Source of the DNA: Bacteroidota bacterium
Lineage (GTDB): Bacteria > Bacteroidota > Bacteroidia > Chitinophagales > UBA2359
Reading direction: 5' to 3'
DNA length: 40,227 nucleotides
Assembly: GCA_020630215.1 (NCBI GenBank)
Contig: JAHDBT010000010.1
Location: 1 to 40,227 of the forward strand
This document shows positions 4,019 through 10,827 of this stretch, piece after piece (the first letter of the stretch is position 1; each line of letters begins with the position of its first letter). Below the pieces are notes generated by a model. The model ran no database searches, was not told the origin of the DNA, and saw nothing but the letters and a program-made list of their open reading frames with translations. The translations under genes were made by a program, and so were the position numbers.

Positions 4019-4190
4019 TTAATTGTTTTAATGTAAACTTTAAAAGTAATTGACATCAAGCCAGCCGCTTCAGGCCCGTTATGCTTCAGCTAGGAGGCTA
4101 GACTGGGCAGCATGGTCAAGCCTGTAGCAGTTTGGGCTTAAAGCCTCCTGGCTTGCGCCTAAAAGTGTAAACCGATTAGATAAATAGGTC
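4019..4190. mobile_element. MITE-like element, copy A (decayed)
   Basis: The right end (AAAAGTGTAAACCGATTAGATAAATAGGTC) matches the shared right end of the other copies. The left part carries AAAAGTAATTGACA, with a degraded terminus before it. The core has CAAGCCAG (4057-4064) pairing with CTGGCTTG (4148-4155). No target duplication is visible. It is related to copies at 6224, 16792, 26652 and 29842. Confidence 0.55.
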
Positions 4191-4385
4191 GCATTTCTCA
4201 AAGGGCAACAAGCCTATACTCAAATGCAAGTGGTTTTCAGGTTCTCTTTTGCTTAATAAATAAAGTTGTTTAACACAAATTTGATACGAATAATTGTATT
4301 ATGTTCCTGCTAGTTGAAAATTGGGCCAGTTGCCAGTTGCCAGTTGAAAACTGGGCCACTTTTAGAAAAGCTAAAAATAGAAAAA

Positions 4386-4871
4386 TTATTGTTTACTAGC
4401 CATTTGGATAGATTCTTTTACCCTAAAAGAGTCTCCATTCATGTTAATAAGGTGTGCTTTGTGAGTTAATCGGTCTACGATTGCGGCTGTTAGGACTTCA
4501 TCGCCAAAAATTTCGGTCCATCTATCAAATGCTAGATTGGTGGTGATGATGGTGGACTTTCTTCCAGCTCTGAGCGATAAATGAGTAAAGAGTAATTCGG
4601 CGGCATCTTTATCGAAAGAGATGTAGCCAAATTCATCGCAAATAACAAGGTCATACCTTTCAAAACGACTTTCTAATTGCCTTAATGTTCGCTCGGAACG
4701 TGCTTCTCTAATCTTAGTAAGCAATGCATGAATGGTGGTAAAAAAAACGGTAAAATCTTGTAAACAAGCTTTGATGCCAAGTGCAATAGCTAGGTGCGTT
4801 TTACCTGTTCCAGGGTTACCTGCCAGTACAATATTTCGGGCTTCTTGGATAAAGTTTTTGAACTTTGCCAT
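4386..4871 (-). pseudogene. istB: istB 3' fragment (IS21 helper ATPase)
   Basis: Remnant of the IS21 ATP-binding helper protein. It keeps Walker A (GNPGTGKTH), Walker B (YDLVICDEFGYISFD), TIITTNLAFDRWTEIFGD and the C-terminal VDRLTHKAHLINMNGDSFR. The family is normally about 240-260 residues. Here only about 160 remain, beginning at KFKNFIQEARN, and the N-terminal third is missing. The frame continues upstream into sequence that codes for istA in another frame, so the apparent longer N-terminus is not genuine. ATG 4871 is the first plausible initiator, but the protein would lack its target-binding domain. Confidence 0.8.
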
Positions 4872-5349
4872 TGATGCGCAGTTGCACCTCGCCCCAATCA
4901 AACTCAACCGTTGAACCTGGCTGCACTGTTTGTCGAATAAAGGCTTCCCGTTGAAGGTGGTGATGTTCCCGAATATAGTCCGTTACGGTTGAATAGCTAA
5001 TTTGATGTCCTGCTGCATGTAGATGTCTGTGAATATCGGTGGCTCGCATACGTTGCTTACCAAGTCCTTGAGCTAACTTTACCGTATTTTTCGACAGACA
5101 TTCTTCAATCATGGCAATCATCTCCCTACTTAAACGCCGACGAGTACGATTGCTGCTATTATAGCTAGGAATGTAGCTAATACTTTCAGGAGAAAGTAAG
5201 CCTTTTGCAGGCGTGTAACGAAGCTTGTGATTTTTTAGGTAGTTGTGGACAGTCGTGCGGGAAAGACTTAATGTTTTTGCGATTTTACGTTCGCTCTTAC
5301 CCTGTTGCCACAAAATAAGTATTTGTTGGTGTTGTCCCATCCTTATCAT
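4851..5349 (-). pseudogene. istA: istA 5' fragment (IS21 transposase)
   Basis: The N-terminal part of the DDE transposase: a helix-turn-helix (KSERKIAKTLSLSRTTVHNYLK, written here in part), a second DNA-binding stretch around MRATDIHRHLHAAG, and VEFDWGEVQLRINGKVQKL, which contains the first catalytic Asp. IstA is normally about 500 residues; here the sequence stops matching after GKVQKLY. It then runs out of frame through istB DNA to a stop near 4816. The second Asp and the Glu are gone, so it is inactive. I chose ATG 5349 (MIRMGQHQQ) as the start; 5340 is an alternative. Confidence 0.8.
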
Positions 5350-5439
5350 TTTTAAATATCGAAAATTGCTCGATATTTTGGTGATAAGTGGCCCAGTTTT
5401 CAACTAGCAGGGTGGCCCAGTTTTCAATTGGTAGGAACA

Positions 5440-5681: not shown

Positions 5682-5702
5682 AAATGCAACAATGTTGCAT
5701 TT
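5682..5702 (+). promoter_or_regulatory. Predicted Zur-type operator 1
   Basis: A perfect palindrome: AAATGCAAC, AAT, GTTGCATTT. The same 9-3-9 layout occurs at 9202-9222 next to the Fur-family gene. The right arm supplies the TTG of the -33 box for the downstream lipoprotein, so repressor binding should prevent transcription. Assignment to Zur rather than another Fur-family member is inferred from the His-rich genes it serves. Confidence 0.8.
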
Positions 5703-5724
5703 CTAACTTTAATCCCTATATTTG
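5695..5724 (+). promoter_or_regulatory. Promoter of the His/Asp-rich lipoprotein
   Basis: TTG 5695-5697, a 19-base spacer, then TATATTTG 5717-5724, giving a leader of roughly 45-50 bases. The -33 box is inside the operator. Confidence 0.75.
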
Positions 5725-5777
5725 CACAATATTTAGTTTAAAAACAGACATTAACTATTTAATTTAAAATTTTAAAA

Positions 5778-6200
5778 ATGAGCAACATTAAATTTTTTTA
5801 CTTGCTTTCTTTCCTCGCTGTTGGACTACTATGCATTACAAGCTGTGGCAAAGATGATGATGATGACCATGATGATAACACCATTACCATTACTATTGAA
5901 GAACCAGTTGATGGGGAAAATATCGAAATAGCTAACTGTGCAGAGGTACGTATACATGTTGACTTTGTTGCCTCAGATGAAAACCATGAAGTGGAGGTTG
6001 TGCTGCACCCAGAAGGTGATGTGAATGACAAAATTATCGATCATGATGCACACTCACATGATCAAACCATCAACTTTGAACAGGAAGTGGACTTATGCAG
6101 CTATCCTGTTGGAACTTGCTTTCATCTTGAAGTTTCAGCATGTGTAGATCATGATTGTGCAGAAAAGGCTACCGTAGAGGCGGAGTTTTGTTTGCAATAG
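5778..6200 (+). CDS. Small His/Asp-rich lipoprotein, predicted zinc-regulated
   Basis: A 140-residue lipoprotein: a signal segment ends in CITSC with Cys23 as the lipidated residue. It is followed by an acidic tether (GKDDDDDHDD, residues 24-33), then a beta-rich domain with many metal-type ligands: His60, His70, His77, HDAHSHD (89-95), His116, HDC (125-127) and five Cys after the tether. I do not recognise an established family with certainty. Its promoter carries the same palindrome as the Fur-family/TonB locus, and it lies tail to tail with the TonB receptor gene. The likely role is periplasmic or outer-leaflet capture of zinc that feeds the receptor; this is inference. A MITE has inserted just downstream, between the stop codon and the terminator. 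Confidence 0.75.
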   Translation: MSNIKFFYLLSFLAVGLLCITSCGKDDDDDHDDNTITITIEEPVDGENIEIANCAEVRIHVDFVASDENHEVEVVLHPEGDVNDKIIDHDAHSHDQTINFEQEVDLCSYPVGTCFHLEVSACVDHDCAEKATVEAEFCLQ

Positions 6201-6223
6201 TGTGAATTTATGTTTGAAATTAG

Positions 6224-6350
6224 GACATGTTTATCTAACCCGAAAAGTACTTGACACTTTTAAACGGTGTAGCGAAGCGAAACCATCCTAATACCAAGTA
6301 CCATGTACCCTCTACCAAGAAAAAGTGTAAAACGCTTAGATAAACATGTC
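6224..6350. mobile_element. MITE-like element, copy B, with 8-bp target duplication
   Basis: A 127-bp element with perfect 15-bp inverted ends: GACATGTTTATCTAA (6224-6238) and TTAGATAAACATGTC (6336-6350). It is flanked by GAAATTAG on both sides (6216-6223 and 6351-6358). It has no coding capacity. The core contains TACCAAGTACC and CCCTCTACCAAGAAAAA, shared in the opposite orientation with copy E at 16792. Confidence 0.85.
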
Positions 6351-6355
6351 GAAAT

Positions 6356-6399
6356 TAGGTTTAGATGGCTTTTTCTAAGTCGTCTAAACCTATTTTTTT
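6356..6399 (+). terminator. Rho-independent terminator
   Basis: TAGGTTTAGA (6356-6365) pairs with TCTAAACCTA (6383-6392), followed by a run of seven T. It serves the small lipoprotein gene and overlaps the stop codon of the convergent TonB receptor gene. The first bases of the stem are the right-hand copy of the MITE target duplication. Confidence 0.8.
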
Positions 6400-8762
6400 A
6401 GCTTACCATCAAAAGGTACTTTCATCGTCAGAACAATATTCCTTCCTTGTTCTGGAACATTAATAATACGGTAGCGGCTTAAATGCGCTAAATAGCTGCT
6501 GTTAAATATATTCTGTACCTGACATTTAATATTTATTTCTTGTTTTCCAATGTGGATATCAGTGCCAATTCCTAAGTCTAAAAGTTGATAGGCTGGTGTG
6601 GATTGCTCAGAGCGATCGATGCGAAGATTACCCGCTGCAGCGAAATTATATTGATGGGATAATTCAATATAAGAATCGGCTATCCATTTATTATGAAAAG
6701 GCGAAAAACTAAGGTCGGTGCGGATAGAAGGTTGTGGGGTAAATGGCAATGCAAGCCTGGTTTTAGGGTTATAGCTTTGAACAAAATCCACCACTTGATG
6801 GAGGTTTAGTTTTGGTGAAAGTTCCCAATTCCACTGTAATTCAAAACCAGTATAAATGGCATTGTCTTGTCGGTATTGAAAAATTTGTCCTGCTTCTGGC
6901 AATTGTGAAAAACGAGCTGGGAAAGTAGGTCCAAGATAAATATAGTTATCAAAGTAATTGAAATATACGGCAAAACTGCCTTCTAGCTTTTTATAATTCC
7001 AATAGGCTCCTAAGTCAAGTTGGTAGCCATGTTCCGAGTCCAAATCGGGTGTACCTACTTCATGTCGGAAAGTGCCATGATGAATGCCATTAGAAACCGT
7101 TTCAGAAGGATAAGGTACTCGAAAGCTTTTACCAAAGTTTGCTTTTATCGTCCATTTTCCATCATAAAGTGCCAGATTAGAGCCGATGGAAGCTGACCAG
7201 TTAAAAAATAAGTCGTCGGTAGCTATAGAAATTAGGGAGTCTATAATGTTTTCATTACTATCCCATATATGTTGACGGTAAAACTCCGTATCATTATTAC
7301 CCAAATCTAAGCGCAAACCACCATTTACAAGCCAGTTTTCTGTAATTTCTTTTTCCAAAATGGAAAATAGGCCTCCACGGAAAGTCCGAAAATCAGGAAG
7401 CAGGTATTCAAACCCTCCCCGTCTATTGCGCTGCCATTGTGCATTAACACCAACAATGTTTTTCCAATGGTGACCAAAATAATACTCATAATGGGAAGCG
7501 ATACTAAAAGTTTCCAACAGCAGTTCAAGACCCAATTTATCATTGGGGTCTTCGAGTTGGGAAAGCGGAATGCTATGGAATTCTGGTTGGGATAGTTCTT
7601 GACGCAGGTTGCGTTGAAAACCAACATCTAAGGTAAGGTGATTACCTCTGAAGAAGAAAATTTGATTCAAAGAAATTCTTTGGTGGTCAACTTTTTGTTG
7701 TGGCACATCAAAGTCCCGATAATTTCCATCATCGGTAAGCGCATAAGAACGAGGAATGCCTACCGCACCACTAAATATTCCTACATCTAAGGAATAATGA
7801 TTGTATAGTAATCGAGTAATTCCCCAACTTTTATTTACCCCAGCAGAAATGCTAATGTTCGCTTCCTCTCCAGCTGTATTTTTTAGTCGATTATTTACAA
7901 TAGGCAAATCATAACCGTTATAAGTAAATAAATTGCTAGGTACCTGGTAATCTGCAAAATCTTGTTGAGAATAACGTGCCGTCAAAAACCAGCTATTAAT
8001 ATTGAAGCCCAATTTTGCGGAACCGCCCCAGTGATCGTTATTGGTTTTATGTACTGCGAGCAAACTGCCCTTGAAACTATTTTCGGGCAATAGTTTATCA
8101 GGCATGATATTGATAACACCTCCAAGTCCATCAGAACCATATTGAAGGGAGCCAGGACCTTTTATGATTTCGACTCTTTCCACATCAAACTGGTCTATTT
8201 CTAAACCGTGGTCACTGCCCCATTGTTGGCTCTCTTGTTTAATGCCTTGATGGTTAACAATAATACGATTAAAAGAAAGCCCTCTAATGACTGGTTTAGC
8301 AATACCAACGCCTACATTGATAACACTTATGCCTGGTAGTTTTTCAATAGATTGAGCAAAAGTACCTTCTAAGTTCTTCTCGAAAAAGTCCTCATGAATA
8401 TGGTCCGTTTGAAGGGTTTCTTCTTGTTTAGCATGTTCTTCTGAAACTTCATGCGTATGCAAAACCTCACTTTTTGGATGTAAAATGATTTTTATATCTT
8501 TTGACTTACCCGTTTTAACCTTAACAAATTCCGCATGAGTCTCATATCCAATATAGGAAACTCTTATTTCGTAAGCCTTATCCTGCAAGTCTATAAATGA
8601 AAATTGGCCATCCGTGTTGGTAATAGTATAAACACTATCAGGAAGCAGAAGAATGGTTGCACTTGGTACTGAAACCAAGTTTTCATCTAAGACAATACCA
8701 TTAATTTGAGCCTTTAAGGTAGAGCAGATGAATATTAAAAGAAAGCAAAAAAAGAATCTCAT
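6390..8762 (-). CDS. TonB-dependent outer membrane receptor with His-rich linker, probable zinc importer
   Basis: A 790-residue receptor. The signal peptide is residues 1-18 (MRFFFCFLLIFICSTLKA). A carboxypeptidase-regulatory-like beta domain follows (about 19-95). A His/Glu-rich linker comes next, with His95, 102, 104, 110, 121 and 123. Then comes the plug domain (about 125-222: LPGISV, PVIRGLSFNRIIV, VEIIKGPGSLQYGSDGLGGVI) and a 22-strand-type barrel to the C-terminus. The protein imports a ligand across the outer membrane using TonB energy. It lies 48 bases after the Fur/Zur-type gene on the same strand, so the two are probably one transcript from the operator at 9202. The repressor, the His-rich linker and the His-rich lipoproteins point to zinc; iron or another metal remains possible. 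No SusD partner is present. Confidence 0.9.
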   Translation of the reverse strand: MRFFFCFLLIFICSTLKAQINGIVLDENLVSVPSATILLLPDSVYTITNTDGQFSFIDLQDKAYEIRVSYIGYETHAEFVKVKTGKSKDIKIILHPKSEVLHTHEVSEEHAKQEETLQTDHIHEDFFEKNLEGTFAQSIEKLPGISVINVGVGIAKPVIRGLSFNRIIVNHQGIKQESQQWGSDHGLEIDQFDVERVEIIKGPGSLQYGSDGLGGVINIMPDKLLPENSFKGSLLAVHKTNNDHWGGSAKLGFNINSWFLTARYSQQDFADYQVPSNLFTYNGYDLPIVNNRLKNTAGEEANISISAGVNKSWGITRLLYNHYSLDVGIFSGAVGIPRSYALTDDGNYRDFDVPQQKVDHQRISLNQIFFFRGNHLTLDVGFQRNLRQELSQPEFHSIPLSQLEDPNDKLGLELLLETFSIASHYEYYFGHHWKNIVGVNAQWQRNRRGGFEYLLPDFRTFRGGLFSILEKEITENWLVNGGLRLDLGNNDTEFYRQHIWDSNENIIDSLISIATDDLFFNWSASIGSNLALYDGKWTIKANFGKSFRVPYPSETVSNGIHHGTFRHEVGTPDLDSEHGYQLDLGAYWNYKKLEGSFAVYFNYFDNYIYLGPTFPARFSQLPEAGQIFQYRQDNAIYTGFELQWNWELSPKLNLHQVVDFVQSYNPKTRLALPFTPQPSIRTDLSFSPFHNKWIADSYIELSHQYNFAAAGNLRIDRSEQSTPAYQLLDLGIGTDIHIGKQEINIKCQVQNIFNSSYLAHLSRYRIINVPEQGRNIVLTMKVPFDGKLKK

Positions 8763-8810
8763 TCAATAAAATTAAGTGGTAGCTTCACGAATACTAAGTA
8801 ATGGTTTTAC

Positions 8811-9191
8811 TTAATAAAGACAATCTTCGCATTGGCCAATGAGTAATAAATTAGCAGAAATGACTTTATGGTTAGGGACAGGGGGAATGGATATATCTAT
8901 TGTTAAGCATTCCGATTTCCCACATTCTTGACATTGAAAATGAGGATGATTTGTAGTGTGATTGGAAGCATACTCGTCCTTACATCTTGCCACCCATCTA
9001 AGACCATCTTTTCCTGTAAAGGAATGTAGAAACCCTGTTTTTTCTAATCGTTCCAATATCCTATAAACAGTGGTTTTGTTCATATCCTCCTTAAATTGTT
9101 TAACCAATTCCGCCACAGATAAAGCATGGTTAGAGTGAGCGAAGGCTTCGAGTATAATTTGGAGTGATTTTGTTTTCCTAAAAATTTCCAT
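8811..9191 (-). CDS. Fur-family metal-dependent repressor, probably Zur
   Basis: A 126-residue transcription regulator: a winged helix (SVAELVKQF, NKTTVYRILERLEKTGFLHS) followed by a dimerisation domain with HPHFQCQEC (82-90) and CEDC (121-124). The two CxxC pairs form the structural zinc site. Specificity (Zur, Fur, PerR) cannot be settled by eye; the His-rich neighbours favour zinc. I chose ATG 9191 (MEIFRKT) because the alternative ATG 9209 lies inside the operator and upstream of the expected transcription start. The -7 box TATCTTTG ends only four bases before the start codon, so the message may be leaderless. It overlaps its own operator (autoregulation) and is cotranscribed with the TonB receptor. 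Confidence 0.88.
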   Translation of the reverse strand: MEIFRKTKSLQIILEAFAHSNHALSVAELVKQFKEDMNKTTVYRILERLEKTGFLHSFTGKDGLRWVARCKDEYASNHTTNHPHFQCQECGKSECLTIDISIPPVPNHKVISANLLLIGQCEDCLY

Positions 9192-9194
9192 GCA

Positions 9195-9228
9195 ACAAAG
9201 ATAATGCAACTTTGTTGCATTAACAAAA
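9195..9228 (-). promoter_or_regulatory. Promoter of the Fur/Zur-TonB receptor operon
   Basis: On the minus strand, TTG at 9226-9224 (within TTTTG) and TATCTTTG at 9202-9195 are 21 bases apart; the operator fills the spacer. The -7 box is almost adjacent to ATG 9191. Confidence 0.65.
9202..9222. promoter_or_regulatory. Predicted Zur-type operator 2, between divergent genes
   Basis: A perfect palindrome: TAATGCAAC, TTT, GTTGCATTA. It lies between the minus-strand -33 and -7 boxes of the repressor operon. It also supplies the plus-strand -33 TTG of the lipoprotein gene at 9286, so one site can silence both directions. Confidence 0.85.
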
Positions 9229-9244
9229 TTTTACCGTATATTTG
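9215..9244 (+). promoter_or_regulatory. Promoter of the DUF4625-like lipoprotein
   Basis: TTG 9215-9217, 19 bases, TATATTTG 9237-9244. The geometry and operator placement match the promoter at 5695-5724. Confidence 0.75.
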
Positions 9245-9285
9245 CGTTAGAATAAAATGAACATTCCATAATTTAGCAGCTCAAT

Positions 9286-10140
9286 ATGAATAAATTAAAG
9301 ATTAACCATCTCCTCCCAATAATCATTTTTTTTGTAATTGGTTGTAATGGGGGAGATGTAGACGTTACGCCGCCATCAATGGAAGTAATAAGCTATACGC
9401 CTGTTCCTACGGAAGAGGAGATATGTGGTACTCAGGAGCCGCTAGTTTTTCAACTCGCAGGAGATGGCGAACTTACTTTTGATGTTATCTTTAGTGACAA
9501 TGATGCGCTGTCTCAATATAAAGTAGACATCCACAACAATTTTGATTGTCATGGACATGGAGGCGGAACAGCTCCTTCAATTGCAGTACCCAATATAGCT
9601 AATCAAACCGTTGACTGGACTGTTTTGGACATTCAAGATATTTCAGGCACCTCTGCACCAATTATTAAAACGCTTACCGTACCTCCAAATGTAACTGCTG
9701 GCAATTATCATTTTCACATTCAGGTAATTGACGAGTCAGGAAACGACAGTCCTTTTGTGAATTTCCATTCCTTGAAAATCAAAAATCCACTTGATGATGT
9801 TCCGCCTCAGATAAATGTTCAAGCACCTGCAAGTAGTTTTTCTATCCAAAAAGGAGAAGCCGTCAACTTTGTAGGGCAAGTCACAGATGAAAGGTCGCTT
9901 AGTGATGGTGGTAATGGAGTGCTTTATCTTGCTTATACTGATCTATCATCAGGAAACACCTTTACAACAGATAAAGCCTTTCCTTTTGATGAAAATGTGG
10001 ATACGAATTTTAATTTCGATTTTGAATATACCATCCCTCAAACCTTGGTTGCAGGAGATTATCGCTTTTCTTTAGGAGCCAATGACGGCGTACGCAATGT
10101 AGCCTCATTTGTGCTTTTTGATGTGGAGATAACTAATTAA
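9286..10140 (+). CDS. DUF4625-like lipoprotein, predicted zinc-regulated
   Basis: A 284-residue lipoprotein: signal segment to FFVIGC with Cys20 lipidated. Two beta-sandwich repeats follow: residues about 30-168 and 172-284. Each begins PP-x-(I/M)-x-V and ends in an AGxYxFxxxxxDxxGN-type strand. The first repeat carries clustered metal-type residues (HNNFDCHGH at 83-91, YHFHI at 141-145, His161). The second lacks them. The first repeat resembles DUF4625, a family of Bacteroidota lipoproteins; this is recalled, not computed. It diverges from the Fur/Zur-type repressor and shares its operator. The likely role is outer-membrane or periplasmic metal capture for the TonB receptor (inference). Confidence 0.75.
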   Translation: MNKLKINHLLPIIIFFVIGCNGGDVDVTPPSMEVISYTPVPTEEEICGTQEPLVFQLAGDGELTFDVIFSDNDALSQYKVDIHNNFDCHGHGGGTAPSIAVPNIANQTVDWTVLDIQDISGTSAPIIKTLTVPPNVTAGNYHFHIQVIDESGNDSPFVNFHSLKIKNPLDDVPPQINVQAPASSFSIQKGEAVNFVGQVTDERSLSDGGNGVLYLAYTDLSSGNTFTTDKAFPFDENVDTNFNFDFEYTIPQTLVAGDYRFSLGANDGVRNVASFVLFDVEITN

Positions 10141-10560: not shown

Positions 10561-10827
10561 TTATTTATCATCATAATGACCATAGCACGAAGCAATGTCT
10601 AGTATGTTTTCATTGATTCGGTAGACTAGGCGGTGTTTGTCGGTGATTCTTCTAGACCACCAACCTTGTAGGTCGCCTTTTAGTGCTTCGGGTTTGCCTA
10701 AACCATCAAATGGGGTGTTGCCAATATTGAGAATTAGATCTAATATTTTTGCGGCTAGTTTGGGATTCTCTCTTTTTAAACGTGGAATATCCTCTTCTGC
10801 TTTTTGGCTCAAACGAATTAAATACAT
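10561..10827 (-). CDS. YoeB/Txe-family mRNA interferase toxin
   Basis: An 88-residue RelE-fold toxin of the YoeB branch, which cleaves mRNA on the ribosome. Visible family features are KPEALKGDLQGWWSRRITDKHRLVYRI, with Glu47 and Arg59/60 in the positions of the catalytic Glu and Arg, and the C-terminal GHYDDK supplying the catalytic His84-Tyr85. The length is typical (about 85). The usual partner would be a YefM/Phd antitoxin of about 80-90 residues just upstream. Instead a 254-residue gene ends 14 bases before the start codon. The catalytic residues are intact, so an antidote is expected. Confidence 0.88.
   Translation of the reverse strand: MYLIRLSQKAEEDIPRLKRENPKLAAKILDLILNIGNTPFDGLGKPEALKGDLQGWWSRRITDKHRLVYRINENILDIASCYGHYDDK

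Follow-up and report, generated by a model that had tools for sequence, protein, structure and literature searches.

We analyzed a stretch of 40,227 nucleotides (hereafter the window; contig JAHDBT010000010.1 of assembly GCA_020630215.1) from the draft genome of a Bacteroidota bacterium of the order Chitinophagales (7.4 Mb, 767 contigs, 90% complete). Positions 5682 to 10140 hold a cassette of four genes with two perfect palindromes. These genes encode a lipoprotein of 140 residues (LP1), a TonB-dependent receptor of 790 residues, a Fur-family repressor of 126 residues and a second lipoprotein of 284 residues (LP2), the full set listed in a preliminary description of this DNA. It is likely, in our view, that the cassette serves uptake of zinc across the outer membrane during zinc starvation, combining repression, zinc binding by LP1 and LP2 and ZnuD-like import.

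Operators and genes of the cassette

Both palindromes, noted already in the preliminary description, were verified as perfect 9-3-9 repeats. Operator 1 (5682..5702, no strand), AAATGCAAC-AAT-GTTGCATTT, lies upstream of LP1, and operator 2 (9202..9222, no strand), TAATGCAAC-TTT-GTTGCATTA, lies in the divergent promoter of the repressor-receptor genes and LP2. Single perfect 9-3-9 palindromes are unremarkable (0.36 expected in the window, which has a third, unrelated one at 1130); two that share a 6-mer core occurred in none of 100 simulations. When the window was scanned with AATGCAACnnnGTTGCATT at up to three mismatches, the operators were the sole matches (0.40 expected by chance). The genome scan that the preliminary description had proposed found two copies of the exact core TGCAACnnnGTTGCA in the whole 7.4 Mb draft, both at these operators, and one copy of the backwards control. 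Scans of the same genome allowing one to three mismatches gave 258 matches vs 125, and 53 vs 27, for the reversed-pattern control; because this excess is only about twofold, degenerate sites are not individually callable, except for the one before zur-MerC on contig C634. Other one-mismatch sites that we inspected were within open reading frames (ORFs) or by unrelated genes and were discarded, as were the many exact boxes of the relative G038, which are inside ORFs and chance-like.

Predicted -7 elements accompany the operators. They were assigned by the known Bacteroidota promoter consensus, and elements like them recur in relatives at comparable spacing. The LP1 promoter has TATATTTG at 5717..5724 (+ strand), 17 bp past the box core, and TATNTTTG is found at similar spacing in many relatives. 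The same element, TATATTTG, is predicted for the LP2 promoter at 9237..9244 (+ strand), and TATCTTTG for the repressor-receptor promoter at 9196..9203 (- strand, read 9203-9196), where relatives keep a similar element on the same strand. The repressor transcript is predicted to begin at the ATG (9191) or immediately before it, leaving a very short leader or none. Paired boxes 37-39 bp apart (start to start) are frequent in relatives (L247, L249, L251, L256, L260), which suggests two bound dimers in many of them; the window boxes are single.

LP1 (5778..6200, + strand) has the mature N-terminus CGKDDDDD. No significant match to it was found in Pfam or NCBIfam, and on these searches LP1 is a family undescribed in either database. 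Across 31 sequences C122, H125 and C127 do not vary, and H60, H92, H94, H116 and D126 are nearly invariant. An Ig/FnIII-like beta sandwich is predicted for the protein, with a predicted local distance difference test score mostly of 95-98 over the mature part. The published export signal of Bacteroidota lipoproteins is K-(D/E)2 (PMC5080379). CGKDDDDD matches this signal and has the acidic run after the lipid Cys that marks surface lipoproteins; 28 of the 31 LP1 members have three or more acidic residues between +2 and +7. LP1 is probably located at the cell surface.

LP1 proteins are of two types: one has six cysteines downstream of the lipid Cys, the other two. The four extra cysteines are gained or lost jointly, which suggests two optional disulfides. 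In Saprospira grandis and a near relative (L274, 7439-8276; L275; L242), two tandem LP1 paralogues lie behind one box with no adjacent receptor.

The receptor gene (6390..8762, - strand) encodes CarbopepD_reg_2, Plug and TonB barrel domains and a His-rich linker. Most LP1-associated receptors share the linker form E-H-A-K-Q-E, with one further His downstream. The closest solved relative is ZnuD of Neisseria (PDB 4rdr, E=3e-18). In the alignment, D184/H185 fall on chain residues 113/114 and H561 on 513, and a single offset of 14 makes them D99/H100/H499 of ZnuD. The high-affinity site of ZnuD is listed as D90/H100/E340/H499 (PMC4557270), where D90 may be a misprint for D99. The receptor thereby matches three of the four high-affinity zinc ligands; the fourth, E340, is not alignable. 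In a set of 30 receptors, most of them from box-bearing loci, D184 is retained in 25, H185 in 29 and H561 in 28.

We call the receptor ZnuD-like, not ZnuD, because its score against the NCBIfam ZnuD model NF038289 (121.7 bits) is far under the cut-off of 950. The best NCBIfam receptor model was that of a haem/haemoglobin receptor family, again under its cut-off. The receptor resembles ZnuD and other Zur-controlled TonB receptors in the plug Asp-His pair, the barrel His and the predicted Zur-type control, but differs from ZnuD in its additional N-terminal carboxypeptidase-like domain and His-rich linker, and in being accompanied by two lipoproteins and its own repressor. The SusC model TIGR04056 gave 42.6 bits (cut-off 368.25), and neither LP1 nor LP2 had a Pfam match to a SusD family.

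LP2 (9286..10140, + strand) contains two Ig-like domains and is a member of DUF4625 (PF15418; 93.5 bits, cut-off 27). The motif DIHxNFDCHGH is invariant (D81, I82, H83, N85, F86, D87, C88, H89, G90 and H91), as is H142; the window copy reads HNNFDCHGH. The preliminary description called both lipoproteins and the receptor linker His-rich. This was borne out for LP1 (6.4% His) and for the linker (6 of 41 residues), but not for LP2, which has only 2.5% His overall, clustered in the one invariant motif. The two lipoproteins were also both placed on the outer surface; the export-type N-terminus fits this location for LP1, but only 3 of 18 LP2 proteins carry the acidic signature. With so few, a periplasmic side is possible, and LP2 may face the periplasm.

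We found no mention of DUF4625 in the literature searched. Although a DUF4625 member, LP2 is set apart by its probable link to zinc, through the box, the HxxFDxHxH motif and the receptor. Not every DUF4625 protein is tied to metal: the genome of the window has a second gene of this family (G000:C674:120-836, L303) with no His motif, no box and no receptor. Two DUF4625-family proteins without the motif (L303 and L313) had neither box nor receptor adjacent, although the sample is small.

The repressor gene (8811..9191, - strand) encodes a member of the Fur superfamily (38.5 bits against FUR, PF01475; cut-off 23.1), which we assign to a subfamily named Zur2. It lies upstream of the receptor gene, and because the gap is only 48 bp the two likely form one operon. 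In a tree of 73 Fur-family proteins, rooted at the midpoint, Fur/PerR-type genes split off from the zur side with support 99. The window repressor falls in a group of 13 (support 99) nested in the zur side, where zur denotes genes with the common box and MerC context and not proven Zur. The genome's Fur/PerR-type gene, on contig C61, is in a separate clade, and its ordinary zur (C634) is elsewhere on the zur side, outside the repressor's group. By sequence, the window repressor is a separate subfamily and not the ordinary Zur of this genome.

The window repressor shares with Zur the box of the relatives' ordinary zur genes, the structural Cys4 site (C87, C90, C121 and C124, present in all 13 members of the subfamily) and the HxH pair, which is nearly or fully kept across the subfamily. 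It retains C70, H78, H82 and H84. However, the sensor cysteine C70, found in 42 of 42 ordinary Zur proteins, is present in only four members of this distinct subfamily, the window copy included. Because the sensor site is altered while the box is shared, this regulator may have a zinc set-point of its own.

Distribution of the cassette and context of its box

LP1 was detected in 38 of 398 genomes of the order. We examined 30 named LP1 loci from GTDB genomes, nearly all of Saprospiria type, including Phaeodactylibacter xiamenensis, P. luteus and Saprospira grandis. LP1, receptor and LP2 occur together in more than 15 of them, so that the co-occurrence of lipoproteins and receptor, proposed earlier as a check, proved strong. 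Allowing no more than one mismatch, we found a box in the 220 bp upstream of LP1 in 26 of the 30 loci and of LP2 in 16 of 18; the reversed pattern gave 0 and 0.

With a minimum score of 120 bits against the window protein, the repressor subfamily was found in 10 of the 398 genomes, eight of which have LP1 (Fisher p=1.3e-7, a value not corrected for phylogeny). The repressor lies between receptor and LP2 in L215, L216, L217, L220, L223, L250 and L258; with the same position in seven other loci, the idea of an insertion specific to the window was dropped. In L218, L219 and L222 it adjoins MerC with the box, without LP1. Copies scoring 125-135 bits are also present in more distant Bacteroidota.

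The exact box was common among 40 relatives, in which the backwards control was nearly absent. Stretches fetched from relatives contained 65 distinct boxes, 51 of them outside long ORFs. The 55 proteins encoded downstream included MerC (11), TonB plug (9), DUF4625 (5), FUR (4), ABC (3) and cobW (1). The preliminary description would have been contradicted by a box that mainly preceded iron or peroxide genes; in the relatives, none of the 25 families listed for these 55 proteins was an iron or peroxide family.

Individual loci add further candidate members of the regulon. FolE follows MerC in L074, and a COG0523 gene stands at the box in L041 and immediately after LP2 in L215. In more distant Bacteroidota, a single cluster in L304 combines repressor, box, MerC, FolE, TonB receptor, two COG0523 genes and genes of DUF4625 type, and L310 has repressor, box, MerC, FolE, lipoproteins (one clear DUF4625) and receptor, without COG0523. 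The names FolE and COG0523 in L074, L304 and L310 are our own reading of these sequences. Zur regulons typically include COG0523 and folE paralogues (PMC6103462). In the genome of the window, the ordinary zur on C634 is divergent from a MerC gene and has a one-mismatch box; because this locus also has the box, the regulon reaches beyond the window. The zinc regulon claimed in the preliminary description is supported by the box context, the ZnuD-type ligands and the co-occurrence of the genes, and we regard its assignment to zinc (Zur), and not to iron or peroxide, as well supported.

A third lipoprotein type (ITTLVYTL... LRHEPDK... GGETDIEV) was observed by the box and by more distant box-linked TonB receptors in L029, L071, L072, L077 and L087. 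The one member scanned had no Pfam match. This type may substitute for LP1/LP2 in other lineages.

Contamination of the draft genome was checked with the TrmH-type gene of the contig, whose nearest relatives belong to the genome's own family (62% at best); its identity to the G020 copy is 50%. The window receptor is 77% identical to the G020 receptor, and the other repressor copies detected in the order come from a different family. The cassette may have been transferred laterally; the receptor tree is too weakly resolved at that point to decide.

Several other features surround the genes. An IS21-type remnant (4306-5435) adjoins LP1, with an IstB homologue at 4386-4907, a short IstA-like N-terminal part at 4816-5403 and terminal inverted repeats of 24-26 bp; the bulk of istA is apparently missing. 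The 3' ends of LP1 and the receptor gene flank an element of about 139 bp (6218-6356), possibly a miniature inverted-repeat transposable element. Its inverted terminal repeats are AATTAGGACATGTTTATCTAA and TTAGATAAACATGTCGAAATT, and a related piece is present at 4161-4196. Just past LP2 is a YoeB-type toxin gene (10561-10827; PF06769, 85 bits), and no antitoxin was recognized alongside.

Proposed zinc uptake and alternative explanations

Box, operon layout, residue conservation and co-occurrence are observations; for repression, zinc binding, hand-over and the direction of transport we infer the following course. A zinc-loaded Zur-type repressor would occupy both palindromes at the -33/-7 promoter elements, silence LP1, LP2 and the repressor-receptor operon, and be released once zinc drops. 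LP1 would then be exported to the surface and capture zinc through its conserved His/Asp/Cys cluster, and LP2, either at the surface next to LP1 or facing the periplasm, would bind zinc through HNNFDCHGH. Powered by TonB, the ZnuD-like receptor would import the ion through a site in plug and barrel (D184/H185/H561).

A more specific proposal, tentative and on balance doubtful, is that the cassette is the first zinc-specific counterpart of BtuG-BtuB. In this proposal surface LP1, of an undescribed family, would bind zinc and load the ZnuD-like receptor, with a DUF4625 zinc lipoprotein alongside or in the periplasm; a dedicated Zur paralogue with a rebuilt sensor would respond to a zinc level unlike that of the housekeeping Zur on the same box. 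BtuG differs from LP1 and LP2 in fold, its ligand is another one, and a receptor-lipoprotein complex of the cassette is hypothetical. Nevertheless, BtuB-BtuG, which serves B12 uptake in Bacteroides (PMC10404256, PMC6143338), likewise has a TonB receptor and a surface lipoprotein in one locus, in the same phylum. The logic of receptor and surface lipoprotein is also that of SusC-SusD glycan systems, but the window receptor is not SusC, and LP1 and LP2 are not SusD.

Several observations weigh against zinc uptake as proposed. The metal response of the repressor subfamily is uncertain because the sensor Cys is lost in 9 of its 13 members. A Zur-controlled inner-membrane importer was not found in the genome: it has no ZIP, and its sole ZnuA-family locus lacks a close box and was not tied to the regulon; nor was the genome's cobW match, which by our reading resembles an ArgK/MeaB-type GTPase. 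Structure searches with LP1 and LP2 found only generic Ig-like sandwiches (RbmA, FnIII) and no informative zinc-binding relative. In addition, the acidic export signature is rare in LP2, and several relatives have LP1 without an adjacent receptor (L265, L270-L272, L274, L275). The last two points would also be expected of a zinc regulon without a relay, in which LP1 is a surface zinc binder with another job (storage, adhesion or competition), LP2 (15 of 18 without the surface signature) is a periplasm-facing partner or chaperone and the receptor imports alone, as proteobacterial ZnuD, characterized as a zinc transporter on its own, does (PMC4557270). This possibility deserves consideration but appears rather unlikely, given that LP1, receptor and LP2 are tightly syntenic with shared boxes in most carriers and that pairing of a TonB receptor with a surface lipoprotein is common in the phylum (BtuB-BtuG, PMC10404256).

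It is unlikely that the substrate of the receptor is a zinc-metallophore complex, or zinc taken from zinc-binding proteins, with the lipoproteins recognizing that carrier and not free zinc. Zur-controlled TonB receptors elsewhere do import metallophores or pirate zinc (PMC6103462), and the Ig-like fold of LP1 and LP2 is a common binding fold; however, the ZnuD-type plug and barrel ligands for the bare ion are conserved, and no metallophore biosynthesis genes were noticed in the cassette or its recurrent neighbours, where no search with dedicated models was made. Still less probable is another divalent ion (cobalt, nickel, manganese or copper). Ligand sets overlap among metals, the sensor site of the repressor subfamily is changed and a NicO-like transporter, named from sequence only, adjoins one box (L094), but the box is common to COG0523, FolE, MerC and ordinary zur genes, and paralogues of COG0523 and folE are typically under Zur control (PMC6103462). 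A regulon of Fur/PerR type, for iron, haem or peroxide, is highly improbable. The haem/haemoglobin model that ranked best for the receptor scored under its cut-off, an early annotation of ZnuD itself as a haem transporter proved wrong (PMC4557270), and the Pfam name FUR of the regulator is countered by the separate clade of the genome's Fur/PerR-type gene (support 99) and by the families listed after boxes, which include no iron or peroxide family.

Outer-membrane zinc entry in Bacteroidota is apparently little described, and the phylum is absent from a 2018 review of Zur regulons. The analysis provides a concrete box, TGCAACnnnGTTGCA, a receptor with recognizable zinc ligands, a new lipoprotein family (LP1) with a CxDHDC motif and a testable role for DUF4625. 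With a second Zur-type regulator on the box of the ordinary Zur, graded zinc responses become a directly testable question.

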